Source: Halorussus caseinilyticus
GTDB taxonomy: Archaea; Halobacteriota; Halobacteria; Halobacteriales; Haladaptataceae
Length of the DNA: 64,000 bases
Direction of reading: 5' to 3'
NCBI RefSeq assembly: GCF_029338395.1
Contig: NZ_CP119809.1
Coordinates: forward strand, 806,001 to 870,000
Position 1 is the first letter of the stretch, and every line of letters starts with the position of its first letter. The translations under genes were made by a program, and so were the position numbers. Shown piece by piece: positions 10,374-58,074 of the stretch. The notes below the pieces were generated by a model that was given only the letters and a program-made list of their open reading frames with translations, did not search any database and was not told the DNA's origin.

Positions 10374-10555
10374 GGCGGCGGAAAAGCCGTTTCGGAACGC
10401 CGACGCTTCGGGGGACTCACGGCAGACGGGTCGGCTTTCACCGGACGCGCCCGGCGCGACGGACCACGAGACGCGCCCGGTCCACCAACCGCCAGAAGCG
10501 CGACAGCCAGCCAACCGCCAGCACGCGCTCGGCCGACCAACCGACGGGGTGGGAT

Positions 10556-10682
10556 AAAGGGGCCGCCCGCTCGCGGCCGAAGGCCGTGGTCGTCTCAGCG
10601 ACCCCTATCCGAGACGAATCGAGCGAAGCGAAGATGAGTCGAGGATATGTCGCTGAACGACCGCGAGCGGGCGGGGGCTTTC
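10556..10682 (+). repeat. Structured intergenic element, copy 1
   Basis: The 127-base element begins AAAGGGGCCGCCCGCTCGCG and ends GAGCGGGCGGGGGCTTTC; these ends are imperfect inverted repeats. Inside are GTGGTCGTCTCAGCGACC (a small hairpin), a central imperfect palindrome, and GATATGTCGCTGA. The same layout recurs at 20966-21083, 24387-24504 and 57964-58074. Any open frame over it is an artefact of its GC-rich inverted arms. Confidence 0.75.
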
Positions 10683-11028
10683 TGGACGTTTATTACCCCG
10701 ATTCCGGAAGTCGTGGTTCGTAGCAAGCGGGCGGGGGCTTTCGAGAACTTCTTCGTCGTGGTTCTGGCGATTGTGGTCGCTGTCGTGGTTGGGACTACTC
10801 GAACCACTCGGCACTCGAAACTGCGACAGCAACCACAACAGCACCCGCAACCGCGGCAACAACAGCGACCGCCGACGAGACAGCATCCGCGACCCCCGAC
10901 GACCCCAACAACGACAGCAACCACGACAGCGACAGCAACCACGACAGCGACAGCAACCACGACAGCGACAGCAACCACGACAGCGACAGCAACCACGACA
11001 GCGACAGCAACCCATAATCGAGCGACGG
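10683..11028. other. Intergenic region with element fragment and GAC/AAC-rich simple repeats
   Basis: Apart from a second partial element end (GCGGGCGGGGGCTTTC, 10727-10742), this stretch is low-complexity DNA. A pyrimidine-poor strand switch near 10790 gives inverted sequence classes (GTGGTCGCTGTCGTGG on one side, CGACAGCAACCAC on the other). It ends in an 18-base tandem array. No coding region is supported: all frames over it are simple-repeat peptides. Confidence 0.6.
10921..11010. repeat. Five perfect 18-base tandem repeats
   Basis: The unit CCACGACAGCGACAGCAA is repeated five times without a mismatch, ending 18 bases before the TATA box of the acyl-CoA synthetase gene. Being a multiple of three it opens frames in all phases, but they encode only short periodic peptides. 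Confidence 0.9.
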
Positions 11029-18523: not shown

Positions 18524-18739
18524 GAAATCACCTAGTATCTCTCTGCGCGACGGTCGGCGCGGTACCGCGGACGGTCGCTCACGCGCGCGTCTACCGTGCG
18601 CATCAATACCATATATCAATACGCCGCGTTCTCGTTGCTAATAACCCGTGGTTAATCACTTAACGTCGGGTCCCGGTGAAGGGAAAGTCCTATGTGGGTG
18701 AGTCACAATCCTTCCGCCAGACGAGACCCTTCGGGAACT

Positions 18740-19441
18740 ATGATAACAATTTCTATGGACATGGAGCAGTACGACTGTCCATTCATCGCCACCAGCGACG
18801 ACCACGACGTGACGTTCACGACGCTCCACTGGGACTTCAACCCGAGCGTAGACCAGTTAGAGACCAGAATCGTGGTGGACGGCGAGGACCGCGGGGCGCT
18901 CTCGAACGGTCTGTCCGCTCTGCGGGACCACGACAACATGCGCGACTACGAACTCCTCTCGAAACGGGGCGGTGCCGCCCACGTCCGGACGGTCATCGGC
19001 GAGACGGACGCGATGGCGACGATTCGGGACCACGACGGCTACATCACCGGCCCGTTCCACATCGAAGACGGGAGCGAGACGTGGAACGTCGGGTTCGACA
19101 GTCCGGAAGTCACCGACCGGGCGCTCGGGGGTCTGGAAGTCAACAACGAGTTCGACATCCTCTCGCGCGAACGCCTCCGCCTCGACACCCTCCAACGGTT
19201 CGCCCGCAACGCCGACGCCGCGGCCACGCTAGTCGAGGGCTGTTCGGACCTCTCGGAGGTCGAACGCGAGACGCTGACGGCCGCCGTCGAACACGGCTAC
19301 TTCGACACGCCACGGAACGGGACGCTCGAAACCATCGCCGACGAGTTCGGCGTCTCGGCCCCGGCGGTGTCCAAGAACCTCCGACGCGCCCAGCGAAAAG
19401 TCAACCAGCGCGTGGTGGACGCTCTCGACAGTCTGCGGTGA
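18740..19441 (+). CDS. Bat-type HTH transcriptional regulator (paralogue 1)
   Basis: A 233-residue haloarchaeal regulator. An N-terminal sensor-like domain of about 165 residues (MDMEQYDCPFI, NMRDYELL, HVRTVIGETDAM, GYITGPFHIEDGSE) is followed by the C-terminal HTH_10 (bacterio-opsin activator) domain with LSEVERETLTAAVEHGYFDTPR and the recognition region TLETIADEFGVSAPAVSKNLRRA. It aligns without gaps, with more than half of residues identical, to the 233-residue protein at 28861-29562, which also supports this start; the ATG at 18692 would add 16 residues. It is divergent from the first liv operon and faces the second, so it may control one or both. The TGA stop lies inside a 20-base tandem array. 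Confidence 0.88.
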   Translation: MITISMDMEQYDCPFIATSDDHDVTFTTLHWDFNPSVDQLETRIVVDGEDRGALSNGLSALRDHDNMRDYELLSKRGGAAHVRTVIGETDAMATIRDHDGYITGPFHIEDGSETWNVGFDSPEVTDRALGGLEVNNEFDILSRERLRLDTLQRFARNADAAATLVEGCSDLSEVERETLTAAVEHGYFDTPRNGTLETIADEFGVSAPAVSKNLRRAQRKVNQRVVDALDSLR

Positions 19442-19538
19442 GTCTCGGCAGTCTGCGGTGAGTCTCGGCAGTCTGCGGTGAGTCTCGGCAGTCTGCGGTG
19501 AGTCTCGGCAGTCTGCGGTGAGTCTCGGCAGTCGCCGG
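19427..19538. repeat. 20-base tandem repeat spanning a stop codon
   Basis: The unit AGTCTCGGCAGTCTGCGGTG occurs four times perfectly at 19441-19520, preceded by its last 14 bases (19427-19440, within the regulator's final codons and stop) and followed by a broken copy. The first stop is therefore duplicated several times downstream. It looks like slippage amplification of a gene end. Confidence 0.9.
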
Positions 19539-20965: not shown

Positions 20966-21083
20966 GAAAGCCCGCGCGCGCTCGCGGTCGCTCACCGACA
21001 TATCGGCGCGCGCAGGACTGCGCGCGCCGATAGGGGTCGCTGAGACGACCACGGCCTGCGGCCGCGAGCGCGCGGCCCCTTTC
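20966..21083 (-). repeat. Structured intergenic element, copy 3
   Basis: Read on the minus strand it begins GAAAGGGGCCGCGCGCTCGC and ends CGCGCGCGGGCTTTC. The central hairpin has 14-base perfect arms (ATCGGCGCGCGCAG) around a TC loop. It starts 66 bases after the livM stop, in the sense orientation. A GTCC-CGGTGGA flank on its left edge is also shared with the copy at 24387. Confidence 0.8.
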
Positions 21084-21148
21084 ATCCACCCGAATCGTGG
21101 ATTGGATGGTCAGGCGCGTCCCGGTGGACTGCCTCACATTCCGGTTCA

Positions 21149-22444
21149 TCACTCGTCACCTCGCAGTCGCGCGGCGACCTGCTTGCCGACCGGACCGCCG
21201 AGGCGGTCCCGGACGGTTCCGAGCAGGCCGTTGGGCACGAACAGGACGAACAGAACGAAGATGACGCCGACGTAGAGTTCGGCGTGGCCGTTCAGGAACG
21301 TGTCGATGGCCTGTCCGACCGTCAACCCGTTGTAGAGTTCGGTCGTCATCGTCGCCTCGCCGAGGTGGTCCCGGAGGTACGGGAGCAGGCCGCCGCCCTC
21401 ACCGGCCTTCGAGAGGAACTCGGTGACGGTCTCGTCGAACAGCCACCCGTACAGCGGTCCGGCGAGCGTGCCGAACCCGCCGATGATAGAGGCTAGCAGT
21501 GCGTCGCCCGTCACGAGGAAGTAGAAACTGCTCTCGGGGGAGACCGACCGCTGGAACCCGGCGAACAGGCCGCCAGCGACTGCCGCGAAGAAGGCGGAGA
21601 TGGCGAACGCGCCGAGTTTGTACCAGAAGGTGTTGTAACCCACTGCCTCGGCGCGTTCCTCGTTCTCGCGGATGGCGACCAACACCTTGCCGAACGGCGA
21701 GTGGATGATGCGTTGCATGGCGAAGTAACACACCAGCACTACGAGACCTATCATGTAGTAGGACACCTCGGTCGTCCCGAACGAGAGGAAGCCGAGGAAG
21801 CCCTCGATGCTGTCGCCCGCGAGTTGGCCGATGGCGAGGTCCAGCGAGTCCACGCCGGGCACGCCGACGCTGAACGGTTCGGTCCGCTCCAGTACCGCGG
21901 GACCGTCGCGGGGATTCGAACCCACGTAGTCCCAGTCGCGGACGAACACGTACAGCACCTGCGAGAATCCGAGCGTAATCATGGCGAAGTAGACGCCCGA
22001 CAGTCGGAACGACACCGCGCCGATGAGGACCGCCAGCACCGCGGCGGCGAGCCCGGCCAGAATCAGCAGGTAGACGAACGGCGTGCCCGTGCCGAGGACC
22101 GGTATCTTCCCGTTGGACGCGAGGACGACGAAGTACGCCCCGGTGCCGTAGAAGGCCGCGTGGCCAAAGGAGAGATAGCCGGTGTAGCCGCTGATGAAGT
22201 CGAACGACATGGCGAACAACCCGAAGTAGAGGACGGTTATCATCGTCTCCACGTCGGGCAGAACCGTCACCATCTCCGCGCCGACCGGCGAGTTGACCAG
22301 CGCCGAGTGGAGCATGGGGTAGGCCGCGAAGAACAGGATGACCGCGACGTGGACCGACTGCTCGCGGGCGTACCGGACCGGCCACGACGCCGCCGACTCC
22401 GACTCCGCGTCGGTCGCCGCGGCGTCCGCGGTTTCGGTGCTAAT
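21149..22444 (-). CDS. livM: Branched-chain amino-acid type ABC permease LivM (system 2), apparent ATT start
   Basis: The permease has motif SGYTGYLSFGHAAFYGTGAY, about ten helices and cytoplasmic loop SPFGKVLVAIRENEERAEAVGYN. The first ATG in frame (22315) would cut the first membrane helix (VHVAVILFFAAYPMLHSAL). Upstream the frame is open into livH but contains no ATG, GTG or TTG. An ATT at 22444 overlaps the livH stop (ATTAG) and follows GGAGGTG by seven bases, as an ATG would in this operon, so I start there, giving 431 residues. The ATG at 22315 (388 residues) is the conservative alternative; an assembly error is also possible. Confidence 0.8.
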   Translation of the reverse strand: MSTETADAAATDAESESAASWPVRYAREQSVHVAVILFFAAYPMLHSALVNSPVGAEMVTVLPDVETMITVLYFGLFAMSFDFISGYTGYLSFGHAAFYGTGAYFVVLASNGKIPVLGTGTPFVYLLILAGLAAAVLAVLIGAVSFRLSGVYFAMITLGFSQVLYVFVRDWDYVGSNPRDGPAVLERTEPFSVGVPGVDSLDLAIGQLAGDSIEGFLGFLSFGTTEVSYYMIGLVVLVCYFAMQRIIHSPFGKVLVAIRENEERAEAVGYNTFWYKLGAFAISAFFAAVAGGLFAGFQRSVSPESSFYFLVTGDALLASIIGGFGTLAGPLYGWLFDETVTEFLSKAGEGGGLLPYLRDHLGEATMTTELYNGLTVGQAIDTFLNGHAELYVGVIFVLFVLFVPNGLLGTVRDRLGGPVGKQVAARLRGDE

Positions 22445-23471
22445 GGCCGCCCACCTCCTCGACGCCGAACAGACCCTGCGGACGCAGGATGAGCATCACC
22501 ACGAGGATGAGGAAGATTGTCATCTCGGGGAGGCTAGCGAAGTCGATTTCGTTGACGAACCACCACGTCGTCGTGGCGTCGGCCATCCCGACGATGACCG
22601 CCGCGACGACGGTGCCTCGGAAGGTGCCCAGACCGCCGATGATGACGACAACGAACGCCGGGAGCAGGGTGTCGGCGGCGAGGGGGACGCTGGCACCCCA
22701 CGCGGGGTCCCACATCAACAGCGTCCCGGCCACGCCCGCCACGCCCGCTCCGAGCGCGAAGACGACGGTGAACACGCGGCGCACGTCGATACCGAGTGCC
22801 TCGGTCATCTCGGCGTCCTCGCTCCCGGCGCGGATGATGAGTCCGTAGCGCGTCCGGGTGAGGAACGCCCAGAGTCCCGCGACGGTGGCCGCGCCGACGA
22901 CGATTTCGAACAGCGAGAGACCGCTGACCGAGATGAGTCCGAGGTCCACCGACTCGGCGAGGAACGACGGCTTGGTGCCGAGTGCGGCCTGCCAGTCGCT
23001 GGTGGGTTGCATCCCGTAGAACAGGACCGCGATGCGGACCAACTCGTCGAGGATGAGCGTCACCCCGAACGTCAGCAGAATCTGGTAGACCGGCGGTCGG
23101 TCGTAGAGGCGTCTGATGAGTCCGACCTCGACCACGCCGCCGAGACCCGCCAGTAGCGCGAACGTCGCGGCCAGCGCGAGGAAGAACGTCAGCAGGCGCA
23201 CGCCCGGTCCGGTCGAACCGCCGATGGCGAACACCATCAGCAGGCCGCCCAGATACGCGCCAATCATCGTCATCGACCCGTGAGCGAAGTTCAACACGCC
23301 CATCAGCCCGAAGATGAGGGTGAGACCGCCCGCAATCATGACGTAGATGGCGGCCTTCGCCAGTCCGTCCACGAAGACCGAGGCGAGGTTTTCGGGACGC
23401 AGGAACTGGCCGAGTGCGTCCACGAACCCCGCCAGCACGACGACGTTGACGAGCGTCGATGCGAGCGTCAT
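22440..23471 (-). CDS. livH: Branched-chain amino-acid type ABC permease LivH (system 2)
   Basis: A 343-residue permease with the signature LTLIFGLMGVLNFAHGSMTMIGAYLGG near residue 50 and coupling loop GLIIRAGSEDAEMTEALGID near 215. An N-terminal ~35-residue extension precedes the first LivH helix. It overlaps livF by four bases (ATGA). Confidence 0.95.
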   Translation of the reverse strand: MTLASTLVNVVVLAGFVDALGQFLRPENLASVFVDGLAKAAIYVMIAGGLTLIFGLMGVLNFAHGSMTMIGAYLGGLLMVFAIGGSTGPGVRLLTFFLALAATFALLAGLGGVVEVGLIRRLYDRPPVYQILLTFGVTLILDELVRIAVLFYGMQPTSDWQAALGTKPSFLAESVDLGLISVSGLSLFEIVVGAATVAGLWAFLTRTRYGLIIRAGSEDAEMTEALGIDVRRVFTVVFALGAGVAGVAGTLLMWDPAWGASVPLAADTLLPAFVVVIIGGLGTFRGTVVAAVIVGMADATTTWWFVNEIDFASLPEMTIFLILVVMLILRPQGLFGVEEVGGH

Positions 23472-24166
23472 GCCGAGAGATACCTCCTGAGTCGCTCGTC
23501 GTCCGCGGAAGTCTCGTCGGCGTTACCCTCCTCGACTACTTGCCCGTTGTCCAGCACGTAGAAGCGGTCGGCGAGGTCCAGCGCCAGCGGCAGGTTCTGC
23601 TCGACCAGCAACAGCGTGGTGTCCTCGGCGGCGTCGGCCAGCGCCTCGGCGACGCGCTCCACGATGAGCGGCGCGAGACCCTCGCTGGGTTCGTCTACGA
23701 GCAACAGGTCGTTGTCGCCGACCAACCCTCGGGCCAGCGCGAGCATCTGCTGTTGGCCGCCCGAGAGGTTTCCGGCGTCCCGGTCGGCGAACTCCCGGAG
23801 GTCCGGGAACGTCTCGAACGCGAGGTCCAGCGCCTCGTCCACGTCGTTGCCCGACGGGACCGCGACCCGGACGTTCTCCTCGACGGAGAGTTGCGTGAAG
23901 ATTCGCCGCTCCTCGGGAATCCACCCGACGCCTTCGTCGGCGACTTCGTGCGTCTCGCGCCCGGTTAGGTCCTCGCCGCGGTAGCGGACCGTCCCCTCGC
24001 GCGGCGGCGTCAACTGGAGGATGGTCCGGAGCGTGGTGGTCTTGCCGACCCCGTTGCGGCCGACCAGCGCGACCACCTCGCCCGCTTGGACCTCCAGCGA
24101 GACGCCTTCGAGGATGTGGCTCTCGCCGTAGTAGGTGTGGGCGTTCTCGACTTCGAGTAGCGTCAT
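23468..24166 (-). CDS. livF: Branched-chain amino-acid type ABC transporter ATPase LivF (system 2)
   Basis: A 232-residue ATPase: Walker A GRNGVGKTTTLRT, signature NLSGGQQQMLALARGL, Walker B LLLVDEPSEGLAP, and LLVEQNLPLALDLADR with the usual LivF Gln-Asn. It is preceded by an AT-rich leader (24167-24260) and a structured intergenic element rather than directly by livG, so F-H-M may form their own transcript. Confidence 0.95.
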   Translation of the reverse strand: MTLLEVENAHTYYGESHILEGVSLEVQAGEVVALVGRNGVGKTTTLRTILQLTPPREGTVRYRGEDLTGRETHEVADEGVGWIPEERRIFTQLSVEENVRVAVPSGNDVDEALDLAFETFPDLREFADRDAGNLSGGQQQMLALARGLVGDNDLLLVDEPSEGLAPLIVERVAEALADAAEDTTLLLVEQNLPLALDLADRFYVLDNGQVVEEGNADETSADDERLRRYLSA

Positions 24167-24593
24167 GTTCGTTCCTCCGTTAAACCCTTCTCCGTGTTTC
24201 TCTCGAAGGTATTTTTGTTTTCTTTAGCAATGTTTAGATTTGTTTTGAAATTGTATTCGTTGCTTTCGTGTGCGACGCGCGCCGTTCGCTCTCCGTCGCG
24301 GTCGGCGTCCGAATCGGCGTGAGCGACTTCTCTGCCGTCGTGACGCCGACGGCAGAGACCGCGATTCGACCGGCTGAGAAGGCTCGGAAAGCCCCCGCGC
24401 GCTCGCTGTGCGGGATATTCAGCGCGCGCAGGACTGCGCGCGCTGAATAGTGGCCGCGCACAGGCGACCACGGGCCTGCGGCCCGCGAGCGCGCGGCCCT
24501 TTTCAGCCACACAGACCGTGGACTGTCGCACCGAGCGCGTCCCGGTGGAAAGATTCACCGAGCGCGTTCCGGCGGAGGGTCGGCGAGTCGTCC
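24167..24593. other. livG-livF gap: AT-rich leader plus structured element
   Basis: Between the livG stop and the livF start lie, in transcription order, a GC-rich stretch with two copies of GAGCGCGT(C/T)CCGG, the full element 24387-24504, a second GC-rich segment with CTCTGCCGTC/GACGGCAGAG as an inverted repeat (about 24330-24356), and an AT-rich tract with several TTTGTTTT runs that may hold a livF promoter. No reading frame here is credible. Confidence 0.55.
24387..24504 (-). repeat. Structured intergenic element, copy 4
   Basis: On the minus strand it opens GAAAAGGGCCGCGCGCTCGC and closes GAGCGCGCGGGGGCTTTC. The central hairpin has 15-base perfect arms (ATTCAGCGCGCGCAG) and a TC loop. 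Compared with copy 3 the outer arm bases differ, but both arms changed together so pairing is kept. It starts 90 bases after the livG stop in the sense orientation. Confidence 0.8.
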
Positions 24594-28860: not shown

Positions 28861-29562
28861 CTACTCCAACTCTTCGAGGGCCTCCACGACGCGCTGAATC
28901 ATCTTCTGCTGGCCGCGCCGGAGGTTCTTCGACACCGCGGGCTTGGACACGTCGAACTCGTCGGCGAGGTGGCCGAGGGTCGCGCCGCGGGGACTCTCGA
29001 AGTAACCGTCGTTGACCGCGGTTTCGAGGGTCTCGCGCTCTACGTCCGAGAGGTCCCGACACCCCTCGATGAGGGTCATCGCCGCGCCCGCGTTCTGGAC
29101 GAACCCCTGCAAGTCGGGGAGTTCGGTGTTGTTGCGTTCCAGAACCTCGAACTCGTTGTCCCGGTCGAGTTCCGCCAGCGTCGTGTCCTCGCACTCGATG
29201 TCGTCAAACCCGACGTGCCAGATTTCGCTCCCGTCCTCGATGTGGAAGGGGCCGGTGATGTAGCCGCCGTTCCCGCGGATGGCCGCCATCGCGTCCGTCT
29301 CGCCGATGACCGTTCGGATGTGCGCAACGTTGTCCCTGCGGGTGAGTAGGTCGTAGTCGCGCATGTTATCCTGTTCGCGTAACGTTCCGAGACCGGCGGT
29401 GAGTGCCGCGCGGTCCGCTCCTTCGACCATCAACCGGGTTTCGAGTTGGCGGTTCACCCGGTCGAAGTCCCACTGGATTGCCGAGAAGCCGACTTCGTGG
29501 TCGTCGGTCGTGTCGATAAATGGGCAGTCGTACTGCTCCATGTCCATCGTGATGTCTATCAT
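28861..29562 (-). CDS. Bat-type HTH transcriptional regulator (paralogue 2)
   Basis: The 233-residue paralogue of the protein at 18740-19441 aligns to it end to end without gaps. The sensor-like part has MDMEQYDCPFI, NMRDYDLLTRR, HIRTVIGETDAM and GYITGPFHIEDGSE. The HTH_10 part has LSDVERETLETAVNDGYFESPR and HLADEFDVSKPAVSKNLRRG. A TATA box (TTTTATCC, about 29600-29608) predicts transcription starting near 29580, which excludes the upstream ATG at 29589 and supports 29562. It is divergent from the aldo/keto reductase. The strict sequence conservation of the N-terminal half suggests both paralogues sense the same kind of ligand. Confidence 0.88.
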   Translation of the reverse strand: MIDITMDMEQYDCPFIDTTDDHEVGFSAIQWDFDRVNRQLETRLMVEGADRAALTAGLGTLREQDNMRDYDLLTRRDNVAHIRTVIGETDAMAAIRGNGGYITGPFHIEDGSEIWHVGFDDIECEDTTLAELDRDNEFEVLERNNTELPDLQGFVQNAGAAMTLIEGCRDLSDVERETLETAVNDGYFESPRGATLGHLADEFDVSKPAVSKNLRRGQQKMIQRVVEALEELE

Positions 29563-29721
29563 GGGCCTGCCCTTGCTATCGTACCCCATACGGTAGATAG
29601 GATAAAAGAGTTTTCTTCGGCCGCGGAAATCGCTCTCGAAACCCGGTCCCGTGGCGTCGAATCGTCGTAGATTTCCGACGCCGTAACCACTTTCCTCGCT
29701 CTCGTCCAACGATAGCGTGCT

Positions 29722-30555
29722 ATGGCTCAACGCGAAGAACTCGACGACGAGCGTCTACTCGACGGAATGCCGCGACTCGGACTCGGGACGTGGGAGAACA
29801 CCGACGCCGGGACGTGCGCCGAGAGCGTCCGGCAGGCGCTGGAGATGGGGTATCGCCACATCGACACCGCCCAAGCCTACGACAACGAAGAACACGTCGG
29901 CGACGGCATCGCCGACGCCGACGTTGACCGCGAGGACGTGTTCCTCGCCACGAAGATTTGGACGAGCAACCTCGCTCACGAGGACGTGATTCACACCGCG
30001 AAAGAGAGTCTGGACCGGCTCGGCGTCGAGTACGTGGACCTGCTGTACGTCCACTGGCCCGCCGACGAGTACGACCCCGAGGACACGCTCCCGGCGTTCG
30101 ACCAACTCTACGACGACGGTCTCATCGAGAACGTCGGCGTCTCGAACTTCGAGCCTCGCCATTTGGACGAAGCGCAGGACGTTCTCGACGCGCCCCTGTT
30201 CGCCAATCAGGTCGAGATGCACCCGATGCTCCCCCAAGACGAACTGGTCGAGTACGGGCGGGACAACGACGTGAACATCGTCGCCTACTCGCCGCTTGCC
30301 CGCGGGGAGGTGTTCGACGTGCCCGAGATTCAGGAAGTCGCCGAGAAACACGACGCCTCCGCCGCGCAGGTGAGTCTGGCGTGGCTTCTCCAGAAAGACG
30401 GCGTGGCCGCGATTCCGAAGGCCTCCAGCGAGGACCACATCCGGGACAACTGGGGTGCGCTGGACCTCGAACTCGACGACGAGGACGTGGCGAAGATAGA
30501 CGGCATCGACCGGCGCGAGCGAGAGGTAGACCCCGGTTTCGCCCCGTGGAACTGA
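29722..30555 (+). CDS. Aldo/keto reductase
   Basis: The 277-residue NADP(H)-dependent oxidoreductase of the (beta/alpha)8 AKR family has the catalytic tetrad Asp48, Tyr53, Lys78 and His111 (DTAQAYDNE, ATKIW, YVHWP). The C-terminal cofactor-binding motif is AIPKASSEDHIRDN. It resembles 2,5-diketo-gluconate reductase type AKR5 enzymes of haloarchaea, which reduce small carbonyl compounds; the physiological substrate is unknown. It is divergent from the second Bat-type regulator with a ~160-base shared promoter region. Confidence 0.94.
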   Translation: MAQREELDDERLLDGMPRLGLGTWENTDAGTCAESVRQALEMGYRHIDTAQAYDNEEHVGDGIADADVDREDVFLATKIWTSNLAHEDVIHTAKESLDRLGVEYVDLLYVHWPADEYDPEDTLPAFDQLYDDGLIENVGVSNFEPRHLDEAQDVLDAPLFANQVEMHPMLPQDELVEYGRDNDVNIVAYSPLARGEVFDVPEIQEVAEKHDASAAQVSLAWLLQKDGVAAIPKASSEDHIRDNWGALDLELDDEDVAKIDGIDRREREVDPGFAPWN

Positions 30556-44486: not shown

Positions 44487-45059
44487 CGCGGACTTCTTCC
44501 ACCTCGACCGACACACGTTCTTTCCGCGGCGCTCCCGGCCCGAGTGATGGTAATCGTCGCCTTCCTCTCCCCGCGCTCCGCGACGACTGGTCTCGGACCA
44601 GAGCAATCTCTACCTTCCTCTACCAATTCCAAACCTTTCTTTACAGCGTTAAAATACGTCTTTTGTCCGTCAGTACGTGGTCGCGTCCCGACCGGACCAC
44701 CGGGCGGGGGCTTTCCGGGACTCCTTCGTCACGACTTCTGCGGTTGCTGTGGCGGTGCGGAGCGTTCGGGACGAGCGAGTTCTGTCGTCCCGGTTGACGA
44801 GTATCGTCGGGCCGAGAGTGGCCGCTTCTACCGTCGAACCAATCACAACCGCAACCGCGACCGCCGCGACTACGACCGCGACCGCCTCTATCGTTGAACC
44901 AATCAGACCACACGGCACCGCAACCGCGACCGCAACCACCGCACCGCGACCGCCTCTATCGTTGAACCAATCAGACCACACGGCACCGCAACCGCGACCG
45001 TAGCTTTACGGCCGAGCGCGTCGCAACTCCTTCGACTCGCTCGCCGACCGCGATTCACC
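44487..45059. other. Intergenic region with element fragment and CCGCAACCG repeats
   Basis: 44676-44715 (GTGGTCGCGTCCCGACC ... GGGCGGGGGCTTTC) is a degenerate end of the structured element. From 44820 on comes low-complexity CCGCAACCGCGACC DNA with a perfect 58-base duplication. The layout (GGCGGGGGCTTTC, then ACT-CTTCGTC, then a strand-switching simple repeat) copies that at 10683-11010. No coding frame is supported. Confidence 0.6.
44875..45000. repeat. Perfect 58-base direct repeat with 68-base period
   Basis: The block starting ACCGCGACCGCCTCTATCG and ending CGCAACCGCGACCG occurs at 44875-44932 and 44943-45000; a third, weaker copy begins near 44822. Each contains GAACCAATCAGACCACACGG. 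The array ends 60 bases before the MFS start. Confidence 0.85.
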
Positions 45060-57963: not shown

Positions 57964-58074
57964 AAAGGGACCGCCCGGTCGCGTTTACGTGGTCGTCTCA
58001 GTGACCCCTCTCCGAGCGAGCGAACGCAGTGAGCGAGCGAGGATATGTCGCTGAGCGACCGCGCGGGTGCTTTC
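57964..58074 (+). repeat. Structured intergenic element, copy 2
   Basis: It starts AAAGGGACCGCCCGGTCGCG, contains GTGGTCGTCTCAGTGACCCC and GAGGATATGTCGCTGAGCGACC, and ends GCGCGGGTGCTTTC. The central arms are built of GAGCGAGCGAACGCAGTGAG. It is the shortest full copy (111 bases), 43 bases after the cheD stop in the sense direction. Confidence 0.75.

Follow-up and report, generated by a model that had tools for sequence, protein, structure and literature searches.

Paired change of the hairpin arms in a dispersed intergenic repeat of halophilic archaea

The window analysed here is a 64,000-nucleotide (nt) stretch of the Halorussus caseinilyticus genome (G000; assembly GCF_029338395.1, contig NZ_CP119809.1, positions 806,001 to 870,000 of the forward strand). 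It holds four copies of a hairpin-forming element, and an earlier note on this DNA had pointed to two of them, copy 3 (c21) and copy 4 (c24), in which the sequence of the central hairpin differs, with the opposite arm changed to match. The Pfam matches around these two copies are a 3-oxoacyl-ACP synthase III-like gene, two branched-chain permeases and two ABC ATPases; neighbouring genes were named from Pfam, and the liv names were given by analogy. The core of copy 3, from AAAG to CTTT, lies at 20967–21082 on the + strand (model match G000:C1:826967-827082, 95.2 bits), and that of copy 4 at 24388–24503, also on the + strand (G000:C1:830388-830503, 63.1 bits).

Read in the orientation of these two copies, the element starts with a 5' flank of about 35 nt (in some cases with a partial tandem copy), followed by AAAG, CCCC and the helix P1 (CGCCCGCTCGC with GCGAGCGGGCG, plus variants), which forms an inverted repeat near the core ends. 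Inward of P1 come a GGTCG/CGACC helix and then the 9-bp helix P2. Between P2 and the central hairpin P3 there is a conserved asymmetric internal loop, AT facing AGNG. P3 has several apex types, and a side stretch, P4, is a hairpin in many copies. The element ends in CTTT and a tail of short repeats, the core being about 110 nt long (mostly 105–126 nt). In copy 3, the left strand of P1 (CGCGCGCTCGC, 20975–20985) is partnered by GCGAGCGCGCG (21064–21074), and that of P2 (CTCACCGAC, 20991–20999) by GTCGCTGAG (21036–21044), with one C-C mismatch. The P3 arms, which were the subject of the earlier note, are ATCGGCGCGCGCAG (21002–21015) and CTGCGCGCGCCGAT (21018–21031); P4 (GGCCTGCGGCC, 21053–21063) is a hairpin in the predicted fold of the other strand. 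In copy 4, the P3 arms are ATTCAGCGCGCGCAG (24417–24431) and CTGCGCGCGCTGAAT (24434–24448), and the outer helix P2 is TGTGCG/CGCACA, unlike that of copy 3; this copy has a one-base bulge. All these features were read on the + strand. Both pairs of P3 arms proved perfect, each opposite arm being changed to match. The predicted folds of the two cores beat 200 of 200 dinucleotide shuffles, with z values of −5.7 to −7.0 when either strand was folded as RNA, and of −6.6 and −7.9 for DNA.

Copies 3 and 4 are members of a dispersed intergenic multi-helix repeat of halophilic archaea. Allowing no more than two mismatches, the genome has 143 occurrences of the left-foot pattern GAAAGCCCNCGCNCGCTCGC, compared to 3 of the reversed control. 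A covariance model, R1 (114 positions, 33 pairs), was built from 38 aligned copies (alignment A2). It gave 105 matches in G000 at E ≤ 0.001, amounting to 104 places, one of which was matched on both strands. Among the genomes of the family, 24 of 28 had R1 matches (E ≤ 1e-4), and the number of copies ranged from 0 (G008, G018, G021, G022) to at least 134 (G011). An order-level scan, carried out with stricter filters and up to 15 candidates scored per genome, gave matches in 80 of 243 genomes and 28 of 77 genera. At least 120 stretches with the pattern were found in genomes of named species; 103 are archaeal (Halorussus, Haladaptatus sp. DYF46, halophilic archaeon LT46 and one Halobacteriales metagenome-assembled genome), and the other 17 are from bacteria. 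Five haloarchaeal plasmid records matched copy 3. No viral contig carried the exact pattern, no phage record was matched by the window copy c10 in blastn, and Rfam 15 at gathering score gave no match in the window. Literature searches, mostly without subscription journals, found no paper on this repeat family. An overlap of more than 60 nt with a stretch predicted to be coding was seen in only 3 of 180 copies.

Paired change was scored on P2, whose arms were delimited by flanking sequence anchors, independently of pairing. The anchors caught 188 places; 5 with an alignment score below 1 were excluded, and 183 copies were scored (58 from G000, 19 from G001, 15 from G012, 13 from G011, 64 from named records, 4 from the copy-3 site set and 10 from the copy-4 site set). 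Nine of the 17 bacterial stretches were omitted by name and eight yielded no row; the 183 do not include c24 and c58, in which these anchors are missing. The P2 cells of these copies comprised 1591 Watson-Crick, 21 A-C, 10 G-T and 20 other combinations, with 19 gaps. P2 was perfect in 129 of the 183, and these included 25 different left arms, the five commonest perfect arm types making up 95 of the 129.

Changes were then counted against the commonest pair at each position in 165 copies, 18 of the 183 being dropped for a gap or for a left arm that was not 9 nt long. There were 297 cells in which both arms had changed and remained paired, 35 in which one arm had changed, and 7 in which both had changed and were unpaired. 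When whole right arms were shuffled 1000 times among all copies, the one-arm cells numbered 427 on average (minimum 377). For the 49 distinct P2 arm pairs the corresponding counts were 115, 24 and 6, with 158.5 one-arm cells on average (minimum 126) in 1000 right-arm shuffles, and for 57 copies of G000 they were 86, 6 and 0. Alignment A2 gave a similar picture: of 1248 cells, 98.4% are paired (shuffled mean 89.6%), 99 cells are changed on both sides (shuffled mean 29.1; reached in 0 of 500 shuffles), and 13 of the 33 pairs show a double change (shuffled mean 7.8). With the partner slid by 1–3 columns, only 34–47% of the cells were paired. It is clear that the covariation first noticed in two copies extends over many, and that changes of one arm are far from being as frequent as changes of both. 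The maintenance of the shape while the sequence drifts is thus strongly supported. Chance palindromes, considered as a separate candidate, were ruled out by the arm-shuffle, slid-partner and fold-shuffle statistics.

The contrast between copies 3 and 4 is itself not one of drift, as the earlier note had taken it to be. In G000, P2 ending in GAC occurs with the P3 type ATC in 30 copies, with ATT in 3 and with CTC in 4, and P2 ending in GGG occurs with ATT in 20 and with ATC in none. This linkage has a p of 9e-12 with the CTC rows left out, the copies being non-independent. Copy 3 is of the GAC and ATC kind; ATT and GGG, which mark the other kind, are found in copy 4. Hence, the ATC/ATTC difference marks two recurrent subtypes, and the two copies were rejected as a drift pair.

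To what extent the pairs resemble those of an RNA was judged from wobble pairs. Thirty tRNAs of G000 (30 of 45 matches) had G-U at 34 of 639 stem pairs; ARAGORN permits G-U and hardly A-C, so that this control is comparable for the G-U rate alone. In P1, P2 and P3 of the element, with the GGTCG/CGACY helix excluded, there were 24 G-T and 48 A-C cells on the + strand (A-C being G-U on the other strand) out of 4470 Watson-Crick, G-T and A-C cells. For P3, copies needed 5 or more of 7 pairs to be counted, which left 153 of the 183, and for P1 6 or more of 11; P3 also had 110 'other' cells, most of them due to one mismatch that recurs in the TCGCTC apex type. Even 48 of 4470 is about five times below the tRNA rate (p 3e-11, which is too small, the cells being non-independent). 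The 48:24 asymmetry favours G-U on the gene-sense strand (p 0.006), and it turns round when the GGTCG/CGACY helix, which had been excluded, is counted. On the + strand, 47 of 183 copies have G-T as the first pair of that helix, and the remaining pairs add 1 G-T and 5 A-C cells; the totals become 72 G-T and 53 A-C, and both rates are still below that of tRNA. The 297 double changes consisted of 163 flips, 102 transitions and 32 other transversions (60, 35 and 20 among the distinct pairs). A flip is made of two transversions and does not pass through a G-U step.

Rearranged arms and loops were also found. In L091 (G000:C1:2735900-2736650), the segment between GGTCG and CGACC is the reverse complement of that of L058 plus one A. 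This was the only inverted arm among 167 anchored elements, 152 being forward and 14 deleted, expanded or unreadable. The loop was inverted in 2 of 44, 1 of 9 and 0 of 58 copies across three apex types, and also in L092 and L179; in L175 the apex is partly duplicated. Chimeric arm pairs were present in L141 (left type CTCTGCGGC, right type CTGACCGGC), L124 and L308. Such inversions and chimeras are in keeping with template switching and with arms exchanged from copy to copy. Two reports describe double changes, arm homogenisation and spacer inversion as products of template switching (PMC8794818; PMC8604942). Because G-U pairs are rare, flips are many, and chimeric arms and inversions occur, a DNA-level process is favoured over stepwise RNA covariation.

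The matching sites in relatives were also compared. For three of the window's four copies, some close relatives lack the element at the corresponding site. At the copy-3 site, full elements are present in G000, G004 and G001, each with a different hairpin, and R1 matched only L104 (G004) and L105 (G001) among the relatives. Short remnants are seen in G007 and G012, and eleven genomes (G013, G016, G002, G011, G010, G003, G014, G009, G017, G008, G005) have a gap of 12–57 nt; G006 and G015 were unreadable. At the copy-4 site (livF/livG), where flank identity is 83–95%, hairpins that are mostly well paired occur in G000, G013, G016, G002, G011, G014, G004, G001, G007, G009 and G012. They vary by species, those of G002 and G016 being nearly alike and those of G004 and G007 sharing the same P3. 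The arms of G017 are ill-matched, G003 and G010 have a collapsed hairpin, G005 has another hairpin and G008 none; a matching site was not obtained in G006 or G015. The c10 stretch of 615 nt corresponds to 109 nt in G013, without the element, and the c58 stretch of 577 nt to 55 nt in G016 and 111 nt in G002, with no model match in either. Since copy number varies, sites are found empty and copies occur on plasmids, the element moves or is often lost.

For the gene setting, genes were predicted with a codon model for which the window served as training sequence. For 180 copies, both neighbours were leftward in 63, rightward in 16, divergent in 24 and convergent in 13, and 64 had an uncalled side. 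The excess among tandem settings (63 vs 16) has a p of 9e-8. Called genes lie at a median distance of 130 nt on the left and 148 nt on the right. The left flank has 36–45% A+T compared to 30–38% on the tail side, as would be expected of a promoter between the element and the left gene. In one annotated record, a copy has a rightward gene on either side, which is the minority orientation. It may also be noted that between 2100000 and 3150000 of C1 the element matches listed, which are part of the 143 pattern matches, number 18 on the + strand vs 1 on the − strand, unlike the rest of the chromosome. Elsewhere the strand of the element switches with the local genes; gene orientation is probably the simpler correlate compared to replication-strand bias.

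We favour, at a probability of roughly 0.55, the reading that this is a dispersed, non-coding, mobile-looking repeat whose arms change together mainly by DNA-level processes, with selection on shape following. Template switching inside the hairpin would copy one arm onto the other and would sometimes invert an arm or a loop, exchange between copies would swap whole arms, and selection on shape, acting through a DNA hairpin or an RNA, would retain the paired versions. Selection on shape probably operates alongside concerted DNA-level change. Of all this, the family, the concerted change, the variable presence at matching sites, the orientation bias and the inversions of one arm and a few loops are observed; template switching, exchange between copies, movement by an enzyme and a reader of the shape are inferred. 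The earlier note had offered selection on structure and hairpin-templated copying as alternatives; the persistence of the shape stands, and of the two causes the scarcity of G-U, the flips, the chimeras and the inversions lean to the DNA-level process with some shape selection.

Several points weigh against this reading. Inversions are uncommon, and not one template-switch event was followed along a tree of close strains. Purifying selection with two mutations in quick succession would give the same final pairs. The arm cells are non-independent as copies inherit their arms, and hence the shuffles and p-values overstate. A mobilising enzyme was not found with the Y1 profile in G000, and no clear target duplication was seen on comparing filled and empty copy-3 sites. 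The orientation bias, which mutational homogenisation alone leaves unexplained, suggests a reader of the element that acts in cis.

The last point leads to the strongest of the alternatives, a cis-acting RNA structure (terminator, attenuator or leader) in passing transcripts, with stepwise compensatory mutation under selection. We consider it possible, though less probable by a good deal. The tandem orientation bias, the strong folding of the gene-sense strand (z about −6), the nearly invariant internal-loop and foot columns of the alignment and the gene-sense excess of G-U (48 to 24) all speak for it. The excess, however, reverses as described once the GGTCG/CGACY helix is counted, the G-U level is about one-fifth of that in tRNAs, flips form the largest class of double changes, and L091 has an inverted arm. 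Moreover, 4 of the 28 family genomes have no copy, so that the element is dispensable, no Rfam family matched in the window, and divergent genes flank 24 of the 116 copies whose two neighbours were called. We also suggest, tentatively and with somewhat less assurance than the RNA structure, that the shape is a heritable trait: arms would be recopied and swapped, the hairpin sequence at a given site would turn over from species to species, the branched shape, asymmetric loop and gene orientation would persist, and an enzyme other than Y1 would move the element.

Turnover of subfamilies is less probable again. Here master copies with different hairpins would spread, and arms would be inherited as packages, with no compensation within a copy. 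The few arm types across loci and species (the top five being 95 of 129), the linkage of P2 and P3 types and the varying presence at matching sites are as expected from it; the origin of 25 perfectly paired left arms, the single-pair steps between arms, the mismatched intermediates and the arm inversion are left unexplained.

Y1 transposase (PF01797) matches were found in 15 of the 28 family genomes. G000 had none, despite 103–105 element matches, and neither had G001, G003, G004, G007 and G010 (29–84 element matches). Element and Y1 occur together in G011 (134 element matches, 7 Y1), G012 (103, 2) and G015 (99, 1), and G021 and G022 each have three Y1 matches. The element lacks the 20–40 bp GTAG/CGTC palindrome of a REP/RAYT system, and G000 gave no match to the Y1 transposase of such a system or to the IS200-type transposase of an active PATE; the copies of G000 are therefore assigned to neither. 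As for a MITE, which has terminal inverted repeats shared with a transposon and often a target duplication, P1 is an inverted repeat close to the ends of the core, and the copy-3 site showed no clear duplication. Single-stranded DNA transposition of the IS200/IS605 kind (PATE or REP/RAYT), in which the hairpin would be the transposase site and covariation the result of selection for binding, is therefore very improbable, the element being non-coding, palindromic and intergenic like PATEs and abundant in three Y1-positive genomes, yet also present in six genomes without a Y1 match and missing from two that have Y1.

Among known systems, the GTAG/CGTC families of REPs are likewise palindromes scattered between genes, and their subfamilies are told apart by stem residues that change in complementary fashion (PMC3733652). 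They are 20–40 bp long (PMC3733652), whereas the present element is about 110 nt with several helices; its feet are AAAG/CTTT, without the GTAG or CGTC tag, and no match to the Y1 transposase of REP/RAYT was found in G000. GT pairing is reported to be frequent in REP stems (PMC3733652), but is rare in the present element outside one junction pair. Hairpins maintained by template switching share with the element double changes of several bases, homogenised arms and inverted spacers; as far as their abstracts say, the published cases are RNA genes and yeast coding DNA, not an archaeal repeat family (PMC8794818; PMC8604942). PATEs with nested SMRs are known in the haloarchaeon Haloquadratum, and PATE and SMR-A of Haloquadratum walsbyi are, like the present element, short non-coding haloarchaeal repeats with palindromes (PMC3119063). 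SMR-A nests in PATE palindromes, as two-hairpin modules nest in the present elements, and PATEs are tied to IS605-type transposons (PMC3119063), whereas here Y1 genes do not track copy number. The present core is one branched hairpin, unlike PATEs, the two being set apart by description, not by sequence.

Compensatory changes are commonly taken as proof of a functional RNA. The hundreds of natural copies of this element allow one to test whether template switching of DNA can create such a signal. As a mobile or cis-acting element spread across many haloarchaea, it is also open to experiment through its filled and empty sites, its inverted arm and its nested modules.

The two-hairpin modules ([CGGAAGAC..CTTCCG]AGGTC[..]GAC and similar) are inserted in L004, L008, L037, L057, L063, L087 and L151, at the P1/P2 junction or in the P3 loop, with deeper nesting in L008 and L052. 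The two remaining copies in the window are on the − strand: c10, with its core at 10556–10681 (106.3 bits), and c58, at 57964–58073 (67.8 bits), which has one C-A mismatch. Beside c10 there are 26-nt repeats resembling the element tail (10444–10543), and on its 5'-flank side an 18-bp tandem repeat of 10.7 copies (10823–11012). A left-foot remnant without a hairpin lies at 44701–44732 on the − strand (weak nhmmer match, E 0.55), near a 68-bp tandem repeat at 44848–45000. The branched-chain amino-acid transport gene cluster is flanked on both sides by paralogous HVO_2525_N / HTH_10 genes (18692–19441 and 28861–29730, on opposite strands), 73–79% alike in three stretches. A 20-bp tandem repeat (5.6 copies, 98% matches) at 19423–19533 runs across the 3'-terminal end of an HTH_10 regulator gene and takes in the stop codon.

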